Below, piece by piece: positions 665 to 10,938 of a DNA stretch of 12,022 bases (position 1 is the first letter of the stretch; the number at the start of each line of letters is the position of its first letter). The stretch spans positions 1 to 12,022 of the forward strand of contig JARXKO010000030.1 of the NCBI GenBank assembly GCA_030271595.1. The letters run 5' to 3'. Position numbers and translations under genes: made by a program. The notes under the pieces are model-generated. The model made no database searches and was not told where the DNA came from. It saw only the letters and a list, made by a program, of their open reading frames with translations. The DNA is from Pseudomonadota bacterium (GTDB taxonomy: Bacteria; Pseudomonadota; Alphaproteobacteria; Sphingomonadales; Sphingomonadaceae).

Positions 665-1285
665 ATGTTCACCGGACTCATCAGCGACGTCGGGACCGTT
701 CGAAGCGCCGAGCAGCGCGGCGACCTGCGCCTGACGGTCGCGACCGCGTTTGACGTCAGTGCGATCGATCTCGGCTCGTCGATCGCCTGCTCGGGGGTGT
801 GCCTGACCGTGGTCGACAAGGGCACAGCGCACAGCGGCGGCTGGTTCGCGGTTGATGTGTCGGCCGAAACGCTGTCGCGCACGGCGGCCGGTCTGTGGAC
901 CGAGGGCGCCCGACTCAACCTCGAGCGCGCTCTGCGCATTGGCGACGAGCTTGGCGGCCATATCGTCACCGGCCACGTCGATGGCGTCGGCGAAGTGCTT
1001 GGCTCCTGTCCCGAGGGCGATTCGGTGCGCATCGGCATCCGCGCTCCAGCCGGGCTCGGGCGTTTCATTGCCGAAAAGGGTTCGCTGACCCTCGACGGCG
1101 TGTCGCTGACGGTCAATGACGTGCGCGAGGAGAAAGACGGCTCGACTCACTTCGCGGTCAACATCATTCCTCATACCGCGGCCAATACCACGCTTGGCAA
1201 GGCGTCGACGGGGCGGCAGCTCAACGTCGAAATCGACGTGCTTGCCCGCTATCTCGACCGAATGCTTGCCGCCCGATCACATTAA
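665..1285 (+). CDS. ribE: Riboflavin synthase, alpha subunit type
   Basis: This enzyme joins two molecules of 6,7-dimethyl-8-ribityllumazine to give riboflavin and the pyrimidine substrate that RibH reuses. The 206-residue product has the usual family length and two lumazine-binding repeats. Repeat 1 starts with the diagnostic MFTGLI and contains SSIACSGVCLTVVD (about residues 38-51) and FAVDVSAETL. Repeat 2 contains GGHIVTGHVDGVG (98-110), LTLDGVSLTVNDV (141-153) and FAVNIIPHTAANTTLG. The ATG at 665 is chosen because MFTGLI is the universal N-terminus. No good Shine-Dalgarno sequence precedes it, which fits translation following ribD. In some naming schemes this gene is ribC. Its last codons contain ATCACATT, a copy of the left half of the palindrome found just downstream. 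Confidence 0.96.
   Translation: MFTGLISDVGTVRSAEQRGDLRLTVATAFDVSAIDLGSSIACSGVCLTVVDKGTAHSGGWFAVDVSAETLSRTAAGLWTEGARLNLERALRIGDELGGHIVTGHVDGVGEVLGSCPEGDSVRIGIRAPAGLGRFIAEKGSLTLDGVSLTVNDVREEKDGSTHFAVNIIPHTAANTTLGKASTGRQLNVEIDVLARYLDRMLAARSH
1276..1283 (+). promoter_or_regulatory. Candidate upstream operator half-site (ATCACATT)
   Basis: The octamer ATCACATT at the very end of ribE repeats the first 8 bases of the palindrome at 1308-1325 in the same orientation. Its start lies 32 bp upstream of the palindrome start, close to three helical turns, so a bound protein would face the same side of the DNA. It overlaps the last codons and stop of ribE, so chance cannot be excluded. Confidence 0.3.
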
Positions 1286-1307
1286 CTCGTCATCGTCAGT
1301 CCTTCCA

Positions 1308-1325
1308 ATCACATTGCAATGTGAT
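1308..1325. promoter_or_regulatory. Perfect 18-bp palindrome before ribBX, candidate operator
   Basis: ATCACATTGCAATGTGAT equals its own reverse complement over all 18 bases. It fills much of the 51-base gap between ribE and the HTH-RibB gene, ending 11 bases before the ATG. The gap is AT-richer than its surroundings. GATAAT at 1323-1328, overlapping the right edge, could be a -10 hexamer. A protein bound here would cover the promoter or the translation start. There is no T-tract, so it is not a terminator, and the gap is far too short for an FMN riboswitch. The two 9-bp half-sites suit a dimeric HTH protein; the adjacent gene encodes one, but the pairing is inference. Confidence 0.6.
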
Positions 1326-1336
1326 AATGCGCGGGA

Positions 1337-2620
1337 ATGAGCAGCAATTTGATCGACCAACTCAACGATATCATCGCGACCGGCGAAGTCAGCCGCGCTG
1401 GCCTCGCTCGCGCGGCCGGTCTTCATCCCAACAGCCTGCGCAAGATGGGCGCAGCCGACTGGAACCCGACCGCCGATACCCTCGGCCGGCTCGAAAAATT
1501 GCTCCAGCGCGGCTCGGCCGACGTCCTGGTCGGGGCCGAAGCGATCATCAACGAAGCGCGCAACGGGCGCATGTTCATCCTGGTCGACGACGACGACCGC
1601 GAAAATGAAGGCGACCTCATCATCCCGGCGCAAATGGCGACCCCCGACGCGGTCAATTTCATGGCCCGGCACGGGCGCGGGCTGATCTGCCTGGCGCTGA
1701 CCCGCGAGCGCGCCGATCATTTGGGTCTCGAGCCGATGGCGCGGACCAACCGCAGCCGCAACGAGACCGCCTTCACCGTCTCGATCGAGGCGCGCGAGGG
1801 GATTTCGACGGGCATCAGTGCCGCCGACCGCGCCCGCACCATTGCGGTGGCGATTGATTCGGCCAACGACCCGGACTCCCTGGTCTCCCCGGGCCACGTC
1901 TTTCCGCTCGTCGCCAGGCCCGGCGGGGTGCTGGTCCGCGCCGGCCATACCGAGGCGGCGGTCGATGTCTCGCGCCTCGCCGGGCTCAACCCGTCGGGGG
2001 TGATCTGCGAGATCATGCGCGAGGACGGGACCATGGCCCGGCTCGACGATCTGATCGAATTCGCCCAGCGCCACGGTCTCAAGATCGGCACCATCCGCGA
2101 CCTTATCGCCTACCGCCTCAAGAAGGATCATCTGGTCGAGCGCACGGGAACCACCAGCTTCACCGCTGCCGGCGGGGCCCAGTGGCAGGCGCAGGTGTTC
2201 CGCGACAAGACCAGCGGCGAGGAGCAATTGGCGCTGGTTCACGGCGCGATCGATCCGGCGAACCCGACCCTGGTCCGGATGCACAGCCTCGATCTGTTCG
2301 CCGACGTGCTTGGCGAAGCGGGGGCGAAGTCGTCTCTCCTGGGCAGCGCCATGCGCATGATCGAGGCTAACGGCTCGGGCGTGGTGGTCGCGCTTCACGC
2401 CGCGGCGCCGGGCTCGCTGTCGCGCTCGGTCGACCTCCGCGCCGGCCGCCCGTCCGACAGCAGCAGCGCCGAGCGCACCTATGGCATAGGCGCGCAAATC
2501 CTCGCCGCTCTTGGTATCCATGACATGGTGTTGCTGACCAATTCACATCATTCTCCGGTCGCGCTGGCTGGCTATGGGCTGGCGATCGTCGACCAGCGGC
2601 CGATCGCGGCCGGAGCCTGA
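1337..2620 (+). CDS. ribB: HTH-fused 3,4-dihydroxy-2-butanone-4-phosphate synthase with degenerate GTP cyclohydrolase II domain (RibBX type)
   Basis: The 427-residue product has three parts. Residues 1-57 resemble an Xre/lambda-repressor-like helix-turn-helix ([19 protein letters not shown] at 19-37, then [14 protein letters not shown]). Residues about 62-262 form a full DHBP synthase domain, which converts ribulose 5-phosphate to the four-carbon unit used by RibH. It shows the acidic loop [12 protein letters not shown] (83-94), [23 protein letters not shown] with H187, and RAGHTE (201-206). Residues about 285-423 align with GTP cyclohydrolase II and keep [13 protein letters not shown] and the [10 protein letters not shown] end. 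Where RibA has its three zinc cysteines, this protein reads [18 protein letters not shown] (316-333), with none. GTP cyclohydrolase activity is therefore unlikely. This resembles RibBX of Shewanella, whose RibX domain regulates DHBP synthase activity. An in-frame TAA at 1325-1327 fixes the start near ATG 1337, so the HTH is genuinely part of the protein. The stop is 2 bases before ribH. Confidence 0.93.
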
Positions 2621-2622
2621 CC

Positions 2623-3045
2623 ATGGCCAAGATTCTGATCGTCGAAGCGCGTTTCTACCCGCATCTCAACGACATGCTTCTCGCCGGCGCGCAGGGCGCG
2701 GTCGAGAAGGCCGGCCATTCCCACGAGACCGTGACCGTGCCGGGGGCGCTCGAAATACCGGCGGCGATCGCGCTCGCCGCCGACAGCGGCTCGTTCGACG
2801 CCTTCGTCGCGCTTGGCGTGGTGATCCGCGGCGAAACCTATCATTTCGAGATTGTGGCCGAAGAAAGCGCGCGCGGGATCATGGCGCTGACGCTCGACGG
2901 CCTCGCCGTCGGCAATGGCATCCTCACGGTCGAGAATGAAGCGCAAGCGATCGCCCGCGCCGACCCCAGGCAAAGCGACAAGGGCGGCCATGCGGTCAAA
3001 GCGGCGCTGGCATTGCTCGACCTGCGCGGCCGCTTCGCCCGTTGA
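2623..3045 (+). CDS. ribH: 6,7-dimethyl-8-ribityllumazine synthase
   Basis: Lumazine synthase condenses the pyrimidine intermediate with the four-carbon phosphate made by the upstream RibB domain, giving the substrate of RibE. The 140-residue protein is near the usual length and carries the family landmarks: [12 protein letters not shown] near the N-terminus, VPGALEIP (39-46), [20 protein letters not shown] (63-82) with the expected catalytic His74, [11 protein letters not shown] (99-109) and a following R112 and DKGG. The ATG at 2623 follows the ribB stop by 2 bases. The stop overlaps a TTG start for the transporter (TTGA at 3042-3045). Such enzymes form pentamers or 60-mer capsids; the sequence alone does not show which. 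Confidence 0.96.
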
Positions 3046-3956
3046 GCCGGGGGGCGTTGAACCCGGAGGAGGCGACGCCGCACCGCTTCGCCTTCGCGCT
3101 GATGCTGCTCGGCAACACGATTCTGGCGCTCGGCCCGTGGCTGGTCCGGCTGGCCGACGTCGGTCCGGTGGCGATCGGCGCGTGGCGGCTGATCATCGCT
3201 CTGCCGTTCCTGTGGCTGGTGGCGCGGGTGTTGCGCCAGCAGCCGCATTGGCCAAAGCGCGCGCTGATCATCACCATTCTCATCGCGGCAATTTTCTACG
3301 CGCTCGACCTCGCCGCGTGGAATGCGGGCATCCTGCGGACCAAGCTCGCCAACGCCACTTTGTTCGGCAACACCGGCAGCCTGGTCTTCGCGGTCTACGG
3401 CCTGATCCTCGCCAAGGGCGCGCCCTCCACCCGGCAGATCGGCGCCCTGACCCTGGCGGTTGCGGGCGGCGCGATGCTGATGAGTGGAAGCTATCAGCTC
3501 AGCCCGCGGCATTTCGCCGGCGACCTGCTCGCGCTGTTCGCCGGGCTGACCTATGGCGGCTATCTGATTTTCATCGAGCGCGCCCGCACCCGATTGCAGG
3601 CCTTGCCCTTGCTGCTGCTCGCCACCGCGTTCGCGATCCTGCCGCTGGTGCTGATCAGCGCCATCCTCGGCGAGAGTTTCTGGCCGCACAATTGGACCCC
3701 GCTGATCATTTTCGCGCTGTCGAGCCAGGTCATTGGCCAGGGCTTGCTGGTCTATTCGATCGGCCATTTCCCGCCGCTCGTCGTGGGCCTCGCCTTGCTG
3801 ACCCAGCCGGCGGTGTCGGCGCTGGTCGGCTGGCTCGTCTATAACGAGCGCCTCAGCGCCGGCGATGTGGTCGGCGCGCTGGCGATTGCCGCGGCGCTGA
3901 TCCTGGTGCGGCTGCCCGAACGGGGCTTGCGCCGGGCCAAAGCCGGGACCAGTTGA
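3042..3956 (+). CDS. EamA/DMT family transporter coupled to the riboflavin genes
   Basis: This is an inner membrane protein of about 304 residues with the two-repeat, roughly ten-helix pattern of the drug/metabolite transporter superfamily. Repeat 1 runs about residues 16-148 ([20 protein letters not shown] first, then [17 protein letters not shown]). Repeat 2 runs about 160-290 and ends with [24 protein letters not shown], the usual EamA C-terminal pattern. No good ATG exists before the first helix. TTG at 3042, overlapping the ribH stop as TTGA, is the best start; TTG at 3057, behind a G-rich run, is a second choice, and ATG at 3102 would cut into helix 1. The substrate cannot be read from the sequence. 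RibN, a known riboflavin transporter, belongs to this same broad family. Position directly behind ribH makes a flavin or precursor a reasonable guess, no more. Confidence 0.85.
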
Positions 3957-3961
3957 AGGCC

Positions 3962-4639
3962 ATGGACCAGCCCACGAAACAGCCCAAGGAAGAGACCAGC
4001 CCGCTCGAAGCTCTGCGCCGCCGGCTGGCGCTTGCCGTTGGCGAAAACGCGGTCTTCGATGGCTGGACCAAAGCGGCGGTCGACTCCGCCGCGGCGCAAC
4101 TCGGAATAGATCCGGCCGCGGCGCGGCTGGCCATGCCCAAGACCGCTGCCGGCAAGATCGACGTTTATATGGATGGCGTCGATCGCGCGCTGTCAGCATG
4201 GGCGGGGGACCATGCCATTGGCGCGCTCAAGATCCGCGAACGCATCCGCTCGCTGGTGTGGCAGCGGCTGCAACTGATGGCGCCAGCGCGCGAGTCGGTG
4301 CGCACCGCGCTCGCCACTTTGGCGATGCCGCACAATCTGCCGCTTGCGGCGCGGCTGTCGTGGCGCAGCGCCGATTCCATGTGGCGTCTGGCCGGCGACA
4401 CCAGCACCGACTTCAACCATTATACCAAGCGCCTGACCCTGGGCGCGGTGCACGGATCGACTTTGCTGGTGTGGATCGACGACCGCAGCGAGGACCAGGC
4501 CGACACCGCCGCCTTCCTCGACCGCCGGATCGACAATGTGATGCAATTCGAGAAAGCCAAAGCGCAATGGCGCAGATCGGGCGACCGGCGCCTGAGCCTG
4601 TCGCGATTTCTCGGACGGTTGCGCTATCCGCCGCGCTGA
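3962..4639 (+). CDS. coq9: COQ9 family protein, ubiquinone biosynthesis
   Basis: COQ9 proteins have a TetR-like fold that binds lipids. In mitochondria they present ubiquinone precursors to the hydroxylase COQ7; alphaproteobacterial members are thought to act likewise at the inner membrane. The 225-residue product shows the conserved C-terminal block: ALKIRERIRSLVWQRL (88-103), RSADSMWRLAGDTSTDFNHY (135-154) with the diagnostic AGDTSTDFN, then FLDRRIDNVMQFEKAK (185-200). An early FDGWTKAAVDSAA matches the N-terminal helix region. ATG at 3962 is preferred, 5 bases after the transporter stop and behind GAAGG. TTG at 3953 overlapping that stop would add three residues. Its place in a flavin operon is odd but may matter, since several ubiquinone hydroxylases use FAD. 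It has no DNA-binding role that I can infer, despite the fold. Confidence 0.9.
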   Translation: MDQPTKQPKEETSPLEALRRRLALAVGENAVFDGWTKAAVDSAAAQLGIDPAAARLAMPKTAAGKIDVYMDGVDRALSAWAGDHAIGALKIRERIRSLVWQRLQLMAPARESVRTALATLAMPHNLPLAARLSWRSADSMWRLAGDTSTDFNHYTKRLTLGAVHGSTLLVWIDDRSEDQADTAAFLDRRIDNVMQFEKAKAQWRRSGDRRLSLSRFLGRLRYPPR

Positions 4640-4654
4640 TTGCGCCTGCCTGAA

Positions 4655-4673
4655 GTTAATGATAATCACTCGC
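4655..4673. promoter_or_regulatory. Fur-box-like site before feoAB
   Basis: GTTAATGATAATCACTCGC matches the classical Fur consensus GATAATGATAATCATTATC at 15 of 19 positions. The left two hexamers are nearly perfect and the right arm is weak. It lies in the AT-rich gap between coq9 and feoA, just before the likely feoA start. GATAAT at 4661-4666 could also be the -10 element. Iron-bound Fur would then repress feoAB when iron is plentiful, as is usual for feo genes. The family that controls iron in this organism is not visible here. Confidence 0.65.
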
Positions 4674-4678
4674 AAGTA

Positions 4679-4948
4679 ATGAACGCGCCCTTTGCCATGC
4701 ACGAGATCCACCTCGACCAAATCAAGCTCGGGACCAGCGCCCGGATCGTCGCGATCGATTGGGATTCGCTCGACGCGCCCGATGCCTCCCGACTGCGCGA
4801 TTTCGGATTCGACGAGGGAGTCGCGATCGAGGCGCTTCACCTCGGCCCGTTCGGGCGCGATCCGATGGCGGTCCGGGTCGGGCGGATGACCGTTGCCATC
4901 CGGCGCAAGCACGCGGCGGCGATCCGCGTCCTCCCCGACCGCAAGTGA
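4679..4948 (+). CDS. feoA: Ferrous iron transport protein FeoA
   Basis: FeoA is a small cytoplasmic SH3-like protein that supports the FeoB iron(II) transporter. The product is 89 residues from this ATG, or 83 from the ATG at 4697, both normal for the family. The sequence LDQIKLGTSARIVAIDW followed by LRDFGFDEGVAIEALHLGPF and GRDPMAVRVGRMTVAIRRKHA follows the FeoA pattern: a GLxxG-like turn, then the GxxxAlRrxeA ending. The frame could extend to TTG 4640, but that would place the Fur-like site inside the gene, so it is rejected. Neither ATG has a clear Shine-Dalgarno sequence. If GATAAT at 4661 is the -10, the mRNA would start only a few bases before ATG 4679. The stop overlaps the feoB start as GTGA. 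Confidence 0.88.
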   Translation: MNAPFAMHEIHLDQIKLGTSARIVAIDWDSLDAPDASRLRDFGFDEGVAIEALHLGPFGRDPMAVRVGRMTVAIRRKHAAAIRVLPDRK

Positions 4949-6795
4949 CCCCGCTGCCGCTGGTCGCCGTCGTCGGCAGCCCCAATGCCGGCAAAAGCGC
5001 GCTGTTCAATGCGCTGACCGGGGCGCGCCAGAAAGTTGGCAATTATCCCGGCGTCACCGTCGAACGGAAATCGGGGCGGCTGGTGCTGGCCGATGGCCGT
5101 CCGGTCGAGCTGGTCGATCTGCCAGGCACCTACAGTCTTGAGCCGTCGAGCCCCGATGAGGCCGTCACCCGCGACGTCCTTGCCGGAAAGCAGCGCGGCG
5201 AGCGAGACCTCGATGCGCTGCTGATCGTGCTCGACGCCTCGAACCTCGACAATCATTTGCGCTTTGCGTTGCAGGTGATCGAACTCGGGCTGCCGACGAT
5301 TGTCGCCCTCAACATGATCGATCTTGCCAAACGCGACGGGCTCGAGCTCGATTCGGCGCGGCTGTCGCGGGATCTGGGAGTGCCGGTGATCGAGACCATC
5401 GCCGTGCGCCGGCGCGGCGTCGAGCAATTGTCGGCCGCGCTCGACGACATGCTGTCGGCGCCGCGCTGCGGCGTTCACCAGCACGCGCCGAGCGACCTCA
5501 TCCACCTCCAGCGGCGGGCCCGTGAGATCGCCACCGCGGCGGTAATCAGCGAAACCCCGGTGCGGCGCCTGACCCACCGCCTCGATTCGGTTCTGCTCCA
5601 TCCGCTCATCGGTCCGTTGATCCTGGCGGCGATCATGTTCGTCATGTTCCAGGGCGTGTTCGCGTGGAGCGCTGCGCCAGTGTCGTGGATCGAAGCTGGC
5701 ATGGGGCAGCTGTCCGCCGCGGCCTCCGCGGTTCTGCCGCCGGGTCTGCCGCGCTCGCTCGTCGTCGACGGGGTCATCGCCGGGGTCGGGGCGGTGATCA
5801 CCTTCCTGCCCCAGATTTTGATCCTGTTCTTCTTCATCCTGCTGCTCGAAGGCACCGGCTATATGGTCCGCGCGGCCTTCCTGATGGACCGGCTGATGCG
5901 CGGGGTCGGACTGTCCGGCCGAGCCTTCATTCCACTGCTGTCGAGCTTTGCGTGCGCGGTTCCGGGGATCATGGCGACGCGCACTATCGACGATCCCAAG
6001 GACCGCCTGACCACCATCCTGGTGGCGCCGCTGATGACCTGCTCGGCGCGGCTTCCGGTTTACACTTTGGTCATCGCTGCCTTCATTCCGGACCGCGACA
6101 TCGGCCCCGGAGTCGGGCTTCAGGGGCTGGTGATGTTCGGGCTCTACCTGGCCGGCATCGGCGGCGCGCTGCTGGCAGCACTGGTGCTTCGCCGCGGGGT
6201 GCTCAAGGGCGGCGGCAGCGCGTTCATGATGGAGCTTCCCAAATATCAATGGCCGCCGCTCAAGGACATCGCCATCGGACTGCTGACCAGGGCCCAGATA
6301 TTTCTCAAGCGCGCCGGCACGATCATCCTTGGCACGACTCTCATCCTGTGGGTGCTTGCAAGCGTCCCCCAGGCCGCGCCCGGCCAGCGTCAGAGTGACG
6401 TCTCGATCGCCGGCAAGATCGCCGGCGCGATCGAGGTCGTGGTCAAGCCGATCGGCTTCAACCGCGACATCTCCCTCGCCTTGCTGCCGGCAATGGCGGC
6501 GCGCGAGGTTGCGGTGAGCGCCATCGCCACGGTTTACTCGATCGATTCGACCGATGATTCGAAAGCCCAGCGGACACTGGCCCAGAAAATGCGCGGGCGC
6601 TGGTCGCTGGCGACGGCGCTGGCGTTCCTCGCCTGGTTCGTCTTCGCCCCGCAATGCATCTCGACCATCGCCGTCACCCGGCGCGAGACCAACGGCTGGA
6701 AGTGGCCGATTTTCATGGTGACTTATCTGTTCGCGCTGGCCTATCTCGCGGCGGGTATCACATATTGGCTGGCGGTCGCCGCCGGCCTGGGTTGA
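4945..6795 (+). CDS. feoB: Ferrous iron transporter FeoB
   Basis: FeoB carries iron(II) across the inner membrane, gated by an N-terminal G domain. Translated from GTG at 4945, the protein has 616 residues. It shows G1 GSPNAGKS (11-18), the GNYPGVTVE switch (32-40), G3 DLPG (58-61) and G4 NMID (123-126), then a helical linker. The membrane core follows, with a first gate motif around Cys337 ([16 protein letters not shown]) and a second around MAAREVAV (517-524). A longer open frame begins at 4759, but the extra 62 residues are arginine-rich antisense-like noise overlapping feoA. GTG at 4945, overlapping the feoA stop as GTGA, puts the P-loop close to the N-terminus as in known FeoB proteins. 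The length is well below E. coli FeoB (773) but complete in domains. No feoC follows. Confidence 0.96.
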
Positions 6796-9025: not shown

Positions 9026-9781
9026 ATGACCGCGACCCCAGCCGGCATGACTTATGCCCAATATCTCGGCCTCGACGAGCTCCTGTCGGCGCAGCGCCCG
9101 CTGTCGGGCCTGCACGACGAGATGCTGTTCATCGTCATCCACCAGACCATGGAATTGTGGATGAAGGAAATGCTTCACGAGGTGGATTATGCGATCCGCC
9201 TGATCGGCGAGGACAGTTTCGCGCCAGCCTATAAGGCGCTTGCCCGGGTCGGACGGATCCAGTCGGTGATGACGCTGTCGTGGGACGTGCTGTCGACTCT
9301 GACCCCGGTCGATTATCTCGCCTTTCGCGACGTTCTCGGGACGTCGTCGGGCTTTCAGTCCGCGCAATTCCGCGAGCTTGAGTTTCGTCTTGGCCTCAAG
9401 GATCCCGCTTTTCTGTCCCAGCACACCGCGGGCGGGGCCGATCGTCACAAGCTCGAGCGGGCGCTCGAGCAACCGAGTTTGCGCGACGCCGCCGCCGCCG
9501 CGCTCGAACGCGCCGGCTTCGACATCAGCGACGGCACTGGCCCGGCGTGGCTCGACGTCTATCGCCGCGCCGACGACCTGTTCGAGCTTTATCAGCTGGC
9601 CGAAAAACTCGTCGACCTCGACGATGCGCTGGCGATGTGGCGGCACAAGCATGTGCTGACGGTCGAACGGATCATCGGCAACAAGCGCGGCACCGGTGGC
9701 TCCGCCGGCGCGTCGTACTTGCGGTCGACGCTCGACAAGCGCCTGTTCCCCGAATTGTGGTCGCTAAGGACCGATCTTTGA
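9026..9781 (+). CDS. kynA: Tryptophan 2,3-dioxygenase
   Basis: This heme enzyme opens the indole ring of L-tryptophan with O2 to form N-formylkynurenine, the first step of the kynurenine pathway. The 251-residue protein contains MTYAQYLGLDELLSAQRPLS, then DEMLFIVIHQTMELWMKE with the substrate-side His39. Near the C-terminus, MWRHKHVLTVERIIGNKRGT has His209 at the place of the proximal heme ligand, followed by GTGGSAGASYL and FPELWSLRTDL, all diagnostic. It is shorter than Xanthomonas campestris TDO (about 298 residues) because the helical middle region is reduced; the active site motifs are intact. ATG 9026 begins seven residues before MTYAQYL. The stop overlaps a TTG start for the next gene (TTGA 9778-9781). 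Confidence 0.95.
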   Translation: MTATPAGMTYAQYLGLDELLSAQRPLSGLHDEMLFIVIHQTMELWMKEMLHEVDYAIRLIGEDSFAPAYKALARVGRIQSVMTLSWDVLSTLTPVDYLAFRDVLGTSSGFQSAQFRELEFRLGLKDPAFLSQHTAGGADRHKLERALEQPSLRDAAAAALERAGFDISDGTGPAWLDVYRRADDLFELYQLAEKLVDLDDALAMWRHKHVLTVERIIGNKRGTGGSAGASYLRSTLDKRLFPELWSLRTDL

Positions 9782-10938
9782 GCTTCAAGGCGCTGTTTTC
9801 GCGCAGTCTGGAAGCGAATCCGGAGCGTCTTCATTTCGCCGCCCACAGCCATCATTTATGGCCCGACGCAAGCTTTGCCGGTCACCTCGAAGCGTGGCGC
9901 GACGCAGCCGAGCTGGCCGACCGCAAATGGGACAAGGTTATGGGCGAGGTGTGGCCCGAAGCGCAGGCCCATGTCGCGAGCGAGCTCGGCAGCGCCCAGC
10001 CCGAGGCGGTGGTGTTTGCCCCCAATACCCACGATTTCATCCTCCGCCTGGTCTCGGCGGTCCCGCGGCGCGGGCCGATTCTGAGGGTGCTGACCAGCGA
10101 CGGCGAATTCCATTCGGCACGGCGCCAGTTCGCGCGCTGGGCGGAGGATGGCTGGTTCGCCGAGGAACAGGTGGCGGCCGAACCGTTCGACAGTTTCTCC
10201 GAGCGCGTTGTCGAGCGCGCCCGAAGCGGCGATCACGACCTCATTTTCATCAGCCAGCTGCTGTTTTCGTCGGGCCGCTTGTTGGGCCCGCTCGGCGAGC
10301 TCGCGGCCCTTGGCCAGCCGGACGGGCCGTGGGTTGTGTTCGACGGCTATCACGCCTTCATGGCCATTCCCGAGCCCTTCGCCGGGATAGCGCCGGCGAC
10401 CGCCTTCTACCTTGGCGGGGGTTATAAATATGCGATGGCCGGCGAAGGCTGCGGCTTCCTGCACGCGCCCGCCGGCTTCGGTCCGCGCCCGGCGGTCACC
10501 GGCTGGTTCGCCGAGTTCGAGGATCTGAGCCTGCCCCCGGGGAGCCTCGGCTACGCCCCCGACGCCGGCCGCTTTCTCGGTGCGACCTTCGACCCGTCGG
10601 GCCTCTACCGCTTCAACGCGGTGCGGCGGATGCTCGACGAGCACGGCCTGAACACCGCGATCATTTCCGCGCATGTCGCAAAGCTGCAGGCCCGGTTCCT
10701 TGGCGCGATCGACGGCAGCGCGCTCGCCGGCGCCGAATTGCTCAATCCGCTCGATGGCGGCGGACACGCCCGCTTTCTCGCCTTCCGCGATCCGCGAGCC
10801 CTCGGTTGGGGCGACGCGCTCAAAGCGCGCGACATCATCACCGACGTCCGCGGCGACGTGCTGCGCATCGGCTTCGCAATCTACCAGGATGAAACCGACG
10901 TCGACCGGCTGGCCAGCGCGATCAGGGAGCTGACATGA
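9778..10938 (+). CDS. Kynureninase-like aminotransferase class V enzyme
   Basis: This is a fold-type I PLP enzyme of 386 residues. FDGYHAFM (188-195) gives a D189-x-x-H192 pair and GGGYKYAMAGEG (213-224) gives Lys217, matching the DxxH and SYKYL cofactor motifs of kynureninase. PNTHDFILRL (82-91) lies in the phosphate-binding region and GWFAEFE (242-248) resembles the kynureninase GWF/GWW segment. Overall the sequence looks divergent and somewhat short for classic KynU. Directly behind tryptophan dioxygenase, cleavage of kynurenine to anthranilate and alanine is the obvious role; a related class V lyase or transferase remains possible. The start is TTG 9778, overlapping the dioxygenase stop. 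The frame is open back to 9547, but that extension overlaps kynA coding and has no ancestry signal. Its stop overlaps the MFS start (ATGA). Confidence 0.82.
   Translation: MSFKALFSRSLEANPERLHFAAHSHHLWPDASFAGHLEAWRDAAELADRKWDKVMGEVWPEAQAHVASELGSAQPEAVVFAPNTHDFILRLVSAVPRRGPILRVLTSDGEFHSARRQFARWAEDGWFAEEQVAAEPFDSFSERVVERARSGDHDLIFISQLLFSSGRLLGPLGELAALGQPDGPWVVFDGYHAFMAIPEPFAGIAPATAFYLGGGYKYAMAGEGCGFLHAPAGFGPRPAVTGWFAEFEDLSLPPGSLGYAPDAGRFLGATFDPSGLYRFNAVRRMLDEHGLNTAIISAHVAKLQARFLGAIDGSALAGAELLNPLDGGGHARFLAFRDPRALGWGDALKARDIITDVRGDVLRIGFAIYQDETDVDRLASAIRELT

Follow-up and report, generated by a model that had tools for sequence, protein, structure and literature searches.

To our knowledge, little is understood of how bacteria that lack an FMN riboswitch control their riboflavin synthesis. 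In Escherichia coli, BirA is both the biotin ligase and a repressor, which controls the biotin operon with an N-terminal HTH and a palindromic operator, and its ligand is known. Archaeal RbkR, in which an HTH is joined to a CTP-dependent riboflavin kinase, is listed as both a gene regulator and an enzyme (PMC8305020). For RibBX of Shewanella oneidensis and Aeromonas salmonicida, it is reported that the X domain regulates RibB, by a mechanism described there as unknown (PMC10012899).

The locus studied here lies in a window of 12,022 nucleotides, the whole stretch of DNA that was analysed, from a member of the Sphingomonadaceae. The gene order is part of ribD, ribE, a 51-bp gap, the gene of a 427-aa fusion protein, ribH, and the genes of an EamA transporter, COQ9, FeoA and FeoB. 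In the fusion, a DNA-binding domain is joined to a pathway enzyme, the HTH (residues 1-62) being followed by RibB and then by RibX (Table 1). From gene adjacency, ribB, ribH, the transporter gene and coq9 are a plausible set of putative targets. The frames after ribH, for the EamA transporter, COQ9, FeoA and FeoB (3042-6795), overlap or touch, so that iron uptake may share the riboflavin transcript. Farther downstream (9026-10938), a tryptophan 2,3-dioxygenase gene is followed by a kynureninase-like gene (Pfam) and then by an MFS transporter gene.

The first-pass annotation had described a perfect 18-bp palindrome 11 bases before the HTH-RibB start, in a gap of 51 bases, and the sequence bears this out. 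All 18 bases of ATCACATTGCAATGTGAT are self-complementary, 11 bases separate its end from the ATG of the fusion at 1337, and the gap between the ribE stop codon (ending at 1285) and this ATG measures 51 bases. By chance, any perfect 18-bp palindrome is expected about 0.05 times per 12 kb (12,005 x 4^-9). With up to 3 mismatches allowed, ATCACATTGCAATGTGAT was unmatched elsewhere in the window and in 200 shuffles, and the scan for further copies that had been proposed returned only its own site in the source genome assembly (1.59 Mb, 67% complete). The Rfam scan of the window gave zero families at gathering score, so an FMN riboswitch was not found there.

The HTH domain of the fusion itself very probably has the palindrome as its operator, and we consider it highly likely that the downstream RibB-RibX enzyme, with this N-terminal HTH, represses its own synthesis from that site. 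Sequence comparison supports autoregulation; that it takes the form of repression rather than activation we infer, as we do direct binding, contact by a dimer, a leaderless start and co-transcription of ribH and the later genes. Across the relatives described below, the putative operator and the HTH are present or absent together, with a fixed position, a half-site spacing and one site per genome, and several stand-alone HTH relatives have a like layout.

Table 1. Features of the HTH-RibB-RibX locus, in coordinates of the window.
Feature	Position	Strand	Basis or remark
ribE	665..1285	+	Upstream neighbour, ending 51 bp before the fusion
Second half-operator (candidate), ATCACATT	1276..1283	.	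Exactly 32 bp upstream of the O1 left half; overlaps the ribE end, including the first stop-codon base
Probable core promoter, putatively of a leaderless mRNA	1302..1336	+	-35-like and -10-like sequences
-35-like sequence, CTTCCA	1302-1307	+	
-10-like sequence, TAATGC or extended -10 TGTGATAAT	1325-1330 or 1320-1328	+	Begins inside the O1 right arm
O1, main operator (candidate), perfect 18-bp palindrome	1308..1325	.	Sequence and conservation in relatives
HTH domain, fusion residues 1-62	1337..1522	+	Relatives' alignment, predicted fold
RibB domain (3,4-dihydroxy-2-butanone 4-phosphate synthase), residues 68-259	1538..2113	+	Pfam, TIGR00506
RibX, degenerate GTP cyclohydrolase II domain, residues 281-422	2177..2602	+	Pfam, TIGR00505
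ribH	2623..3045	+	Two bases past the fusion stop codon; probable co-transcribed target

The RibB domain of the fusion is complete (TIGR00506, 236.5 bits against a cut-off of 177.45). RibX matches GTP cyclohydrolase II in Pfam, yet it reaches only 43.9 bits with the RibA equivalog model TIGR00505, whose cut-off is 205.85. Within alignment columns 310-345, cysteine occurs in at most 4 of 128 HTH-bearing rows and at most 1 of 20 HTH-less rows per column, and the cysteines that we take to be the zinc ligands of RibA are lacking in RibX here. A second, higher-scoring PF00925 match, representing a separate RibA gene, was found elsewhere in 20 of the 20 genomes tested. With a complete RibB, a RibA-like domain below cut-off and a separate RibA, the fusion is therefore a RibBX protein in the sense in which PMC10012899 describes one. 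The AlphaFold model of the full-length fusion has a mean pLDDT of 70.9, with residues 129-193 below 50, and the domain arrangement was not read from it.

Pfam finds only DHBP_synthase and GTP_cyclohydro2 in the fusion, and the HTH stays below every Pfam cut-off (HTH_31 with 15.4 of the 27 bits needed, HTH_3 with 14 of 23 and HTH_26 with 13.7 of 22 among the curated HTH models). In the alignment of 31 relatives, the invariant residues of this domain include A24, A27, G28, L29, H30, N32, L34, R35, W42, N43, P44 and T45. Its AlphaFold model is a helical fold (pLDDT 83.5), for which the best Foldseek matches are lambda-repressor-like, with the phage P22 c2 repressor, and weak (E 0.5, probability 0.94; none at E <=0.001). 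Sequence search of the PDB with the HTH profile gave no significant match, and the PHROGs search gave weak matches, mostly to transcription-regulation families.

The position of the palindrome was compared among 155 non-redundant HTH-bearing loci, a set that omits one locus (L196) with only about 50 bp of upstream sequence. In 110 of them, the distance from the end of the site to the start codon is 5-14 bp (11 bp in 64), and in the other 45 it is 19-58 bp. Shine-Dalgarno-like tetramers precede 10 of the 110 close-site genes, 33 of the 45 farther-site genes and 18 of 28 HTH-less genes. On the simplest reading, transcription would start about 10-12 bp past the site, giving a leaderless mRNA where the gene begins there and a leadered one otherwise; in the window, the start is expected near 1333-1337. 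The genus logo (67 loci) revealed that conservation of the outer bases is higher in the right half than in the left, and that an A at position 19, one base beyond the site, is present in 62 of 67 loci and has no symmetric partner, which is as expected if a -10 element overlaps the site. Conservation of the -35 element is poor, with 40 of the 110 close-site loci having TTG at -7 to -3. Additionally, 99 of the 155 loci carry a half-site (at least 7 of 8 bases) at a distance of 31-33 bp from the main site and 56 do not, while offsets shifted by 5-10 bp give 1-11 loci.

In the mechanism that we propose, a dimer of the enzyme would set its two HTH domains on the two halves of the palindrome, and the protein might touch the same DNA face again three helical turns upstream. 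As the operator overlaps the core promoter, probably that of a leaderless mRNA, enzyme bound there should block RNA polymerase, and would thus repress the expression of its own gene and of those that follow. The sign of regulation is unreadable from sequence, and a half-site three turns upstream would also suit an activator, so HTH-RibBX might instead bind the palindrome and activate the promoter. We regard this as unlikely, because the site that is conserved best lies across the predicted core promoter and, in the 110 close-site loci, occupies the usual place of a repressor.

The first-pass annotation had made its case for autoregulation depend on the palindrome tracking the HTH domain among relatives. 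A match to the fusion was found in 194 of the 197 genomes searched (source genome included). From the places listed among these 194 genomes, rather than from all places, 130 upstream regions were chosen for comparison, 101 with and 29 without the HTH. One HTH-less region, a contig-edge fragment (L070, G012), was left out, and the remaining 28 consist of 13 loci of 12 same-family genomes and 15 loci from other families. The site score was the best match to ATCACATNNNNATGTGAT (14 fixed bases) within 250 bp upstream; for two loci with a start misplaced into ribE (L122 and L126), the whole loci were scanned and the gap values ignored. The palindrome does track the HTH, and this co-occurrence supports autoregulation by the adjacent domain: all 101 HTH-bearing regions score at least 10 and 90 at least 12 (14/14 in 39, 13 in 33, 12 in 18, 11 in 10 and 10 in 1), the HTH-less regions never score above 10, and none of the 28 HTH-less loci reaches 12 over the whole 2 kb, where one reaches 11. 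The loci are related by descent, so the counts are not independent.

The weakest HTH-bearing match (10/14), 26 bp before the start, belongs to a genome of the same genus (G053, L067), and ten other loci score 11/14. The HTH-RibBA of this genome (L067, L285, L302) is divergent, with 62% identity to that of the window, and it may have changed specificity or have its start codon elsewhere. In a second collection, the best 80 of 580 relatives (Sphingomonas, Sphingobium, Sphingorhabdus, Blastomonas, Sphingosinicella, Stakelama and others), the core was matched at 10 or more of 12 positions within 150 bp upstream in 80 of 80, and 55 of these loci were absent from the first set.

On the RibBA tree (84 rows), the HTH label has to change 6 times, and well-supported branches force at least 4 of these changes, so the HTH has probably been lost together with the site several times. 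Where ribE lies directly upstream, the gap between ribE and ribBA is 40-65 nt in 66 of 72 HTH-bearing loci, whereas the 22 HTH-less loci range from -17 to +36 nt, with a median of 2 (another two HTH-less values are artefacts). In this way, the HTH-bearing state looks like an added block, made up of about 50 bp of promoter and operator and about 190 bp of HTH codons. Furthermore, ribE was not detected within 1.4 kb in 28 of the 101 HTH-bearing loci, from which the operator is still not missing, so that the operator goes with the HTH gene and not with ribE.

Whole-genome counts were made with the pattern TCACAYNNNNRTGTGA, which is present in 65 of 71 genus genomes, in a single copy in 60 of the 65, while the reversed control pattern occurs once, in one of the 71. 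Among the genus genomes without the pattern, G004, G040, G046, G053 and G059 have a variant ribBA site (10-12/14), and in G038 the gene is present only in truncated form, at the end of a contig. Five genus genomes carry six further palindromes between them, which were examined as candidate regulon members; five of these lie inside homologous coding frames, the sixth is L292, and no regulon beyond ribBA is claimed. The palindromes in these coding frames (L293-L297, from G064, G015, G041, G005 and G060) are probably due to chance; the two frames tested encode TatD-like DNases. In 30 genomes picked as lacking a normal HTH-RibBA, the pattern was found in four, namely G077, G087, G125 (three) and G128 (one; the control also one), and the HTH, searched in 15 of the 30, was present in G077 and G087 only.

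Relatives of the HTH also exist as separate proteins. When 385 genomes of the class were scanned with the profile of the HTH, six matched, four from the same family and two with short HTH proteins. Genome G087, which is Tardibacter chloracetimidivorans by the name of an identical protein, has HTH-less RibBAs plus a stand-alone HTH protein of 68 aa, which is found on a viral contig as well (L303). Upstream of this stand-alone gene, ATCACATTCAGATGTGTT ends 12 bp before the ATG and a second site lies 31 bp upstream. In the same genome (L291, 3872-3920 and 6712-6915), the palindromes ATCACATTAGGATGTGAT and ATCACATTATGATGTGGT stand 31 bp apart among phage-like ORFs, at a distance of about 2.8 kb from the gene of the separate HTH protein.

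Two scans of viral contigs yielded 7 and 10 loci, on partly shared contigs, and a second class scan added bacterial relatives. For 10 of 19 stand-alone relatives, an inverted repeat matching in at least 6/7 positions was found with its end 7-14 bp ahead of the start, against a mean of 0.9 and a maximum of 4 in 200 shuffling runs; one of the ten (L308) is counted by an upstream alternative start, and with its other start, 32 bp from the palindrome, the count is 9. The remaining 9 of the 19 show no clear palindrome by this test, among them L304, whose helix reads HPN as in RibBA. Judged by eye, and with L304 as an exception, the operator sequence seems to vary according to the recognition helix: CACAT/ATGTG-like sites are found for L303 (HPN) and, in imperfect form, for L305 (HAN); L307, L308 and L137 (KDT, NDT and SDT) have GCAT/ATGCG-like sites; and L313, L315 and L316 (H-x-N-T-L-L) have GCATA/TATGC sites. 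In the unrooted HTH tree of 64 columns, the phage rows L303, L309, L313, L315 and L316 fall among the RibBA HTHs at low resolution, and the direction of transfer between phage and RibBA is not settled by it. These proteins (L303-L308 and L312-L316 on viral contigs, and L137, L327, L329 and L330) are small HTH proteins of phage type that form one family, several members of which have a palindrome about 12 bp before the start with differing half-sites, and the family looks suited to a study of covariation between helix and operator.

These distributions bear on a further explanation, by which another transcription factor binds the palindrome to control ribBA and the HTH has some other role. Many regulators bind such palindromes, and binding by the HTH is itself an inference, but this explanation is very improbable. 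The site follows the HTH through the 101 HTH-bearing and 28 HTH-less loci, including the losses inside the family, and where the RibBAs lack the HTH, in Tardibacter, it precedes the stand-alone HTH gene. The single copy in 60 of 65 genus genomes is unlike the sites of a global regulator. The half-sites of CRP are ordered TGTGA-N6-TCACA, and those of the palindrome stand in the inverse order, TCACA-N6-TGTGA. A role of the palindrome in RNA, as a terminator or leader hairpin, can be dismissed almost entirely: the arms could pair as a short hairpin if transcribed from ribE, but in the window no T run follows the palindrome, there is no Rfam match, the two-fold symmetric half-sites recur at helical spacing, and the site follows the HTH and not ribE, as its retention in the 28 loci without a nearby ribE attests.

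A covariance-model match to the FMN riboswitch (RF00050) was not found in 119 sampled same-family genomes, under stricter filters that lose weak matches; with these filters, 15 of 197 relatives were positive, all in other families. The HTH was also considered as a simple replacement of the FMN riboswitch, and this was rejected because the HTH-less members of the same family are without the riboswitch too. As for the signal, it is our guess that DNA binding responds to occupancy of RibB or RibX, be it by a flavin, by ribulose 5-phosphate or by a molecule like GTP. RibX would be the natural candidate for ligand sensing, because in Shewanella RibBX, according to the account cited above (PMC10012899), RibB is regulated by the X domain.

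A possible history, which we offer tentatively and hold to be rather doubtful as a whole, is that an ancestor of the Sphingomonadaceae received, in a single event between ribE and ribBX, a repressor module of phage type, about 240 bp long and comprising operator, leaderless promoter and HTH frame. The module would have made the enzyme its own repressor, with RibX as sensor, in a lineage where no FMN riboswitch was found. Phage and host control of riboflavin might then cross-talk, because stand-alone regulators with an operator of this kind are still encoded in prophages, as in Tardibacter. In this locus, an operator, a promoter and an HTH of phage type would have been joined to a metabolic gene, and natural losses serve as controls; the locus also hints that the degenerate RibX domain, so far a puzzle, has a part in regulation. 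The testable answer that it offers, for a group that is large and widely used (Sphingomonas, Sphingobium, Sphingomicrobium, Blastomonas and others), is that RibB itself would be the repressor. Judging by its sequence, the locus very probably represents riboflavin control by an HTH-bearing enzyme at its own gene, of which we found no prior description in the open-licence literature searched; an HTH-RibB regulator was not found in the titles and abstracts of the open-licence PubMed Central articles that the searches listed, from a body outside which most subscription papers lie.

Compared with known systems, the HTH resembles the stand-alone phage-type HTHs (L303, L305, L307, L312, L313, L315, L316 and others), which are homologous to it. 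In many of these, about 12 bp separate the end of a palindrome from the start codon, and L303, L307 and L313 have a second site about 31-32 bp away; they differ from the fusion in being about 60-90 aa long without an enzyme domain, and several have other half-site sequences. The enzyme part resembles RibBX in combining RibB with a degenerate RibA-like domain while a separate RibA is present elsewhere; neither an HTH nor an operator appears in the account of RibBX given in PMC10012899, whereas an HTH and a candidate operator are present here. Like RbkR, the fusion would be a riboflavin-pathway enzyme that regulates genes through an N-terminal HTH, but the enzyme and the domain of life are different, and Pfam finds RibB and RibX here and no riboflavin kinase domain. 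Similarly, it shares with BirA the plan of a vitamin-pathway enzyme with an N-terminal HTH and a palindromic operator, presumably also for repression, but the enzyme and the type of HTH are different, and Pfam finds no biotin ligase domain in it. By analogy, the best reading is that the fusion works like RbkR and BirA and is a member of neither.
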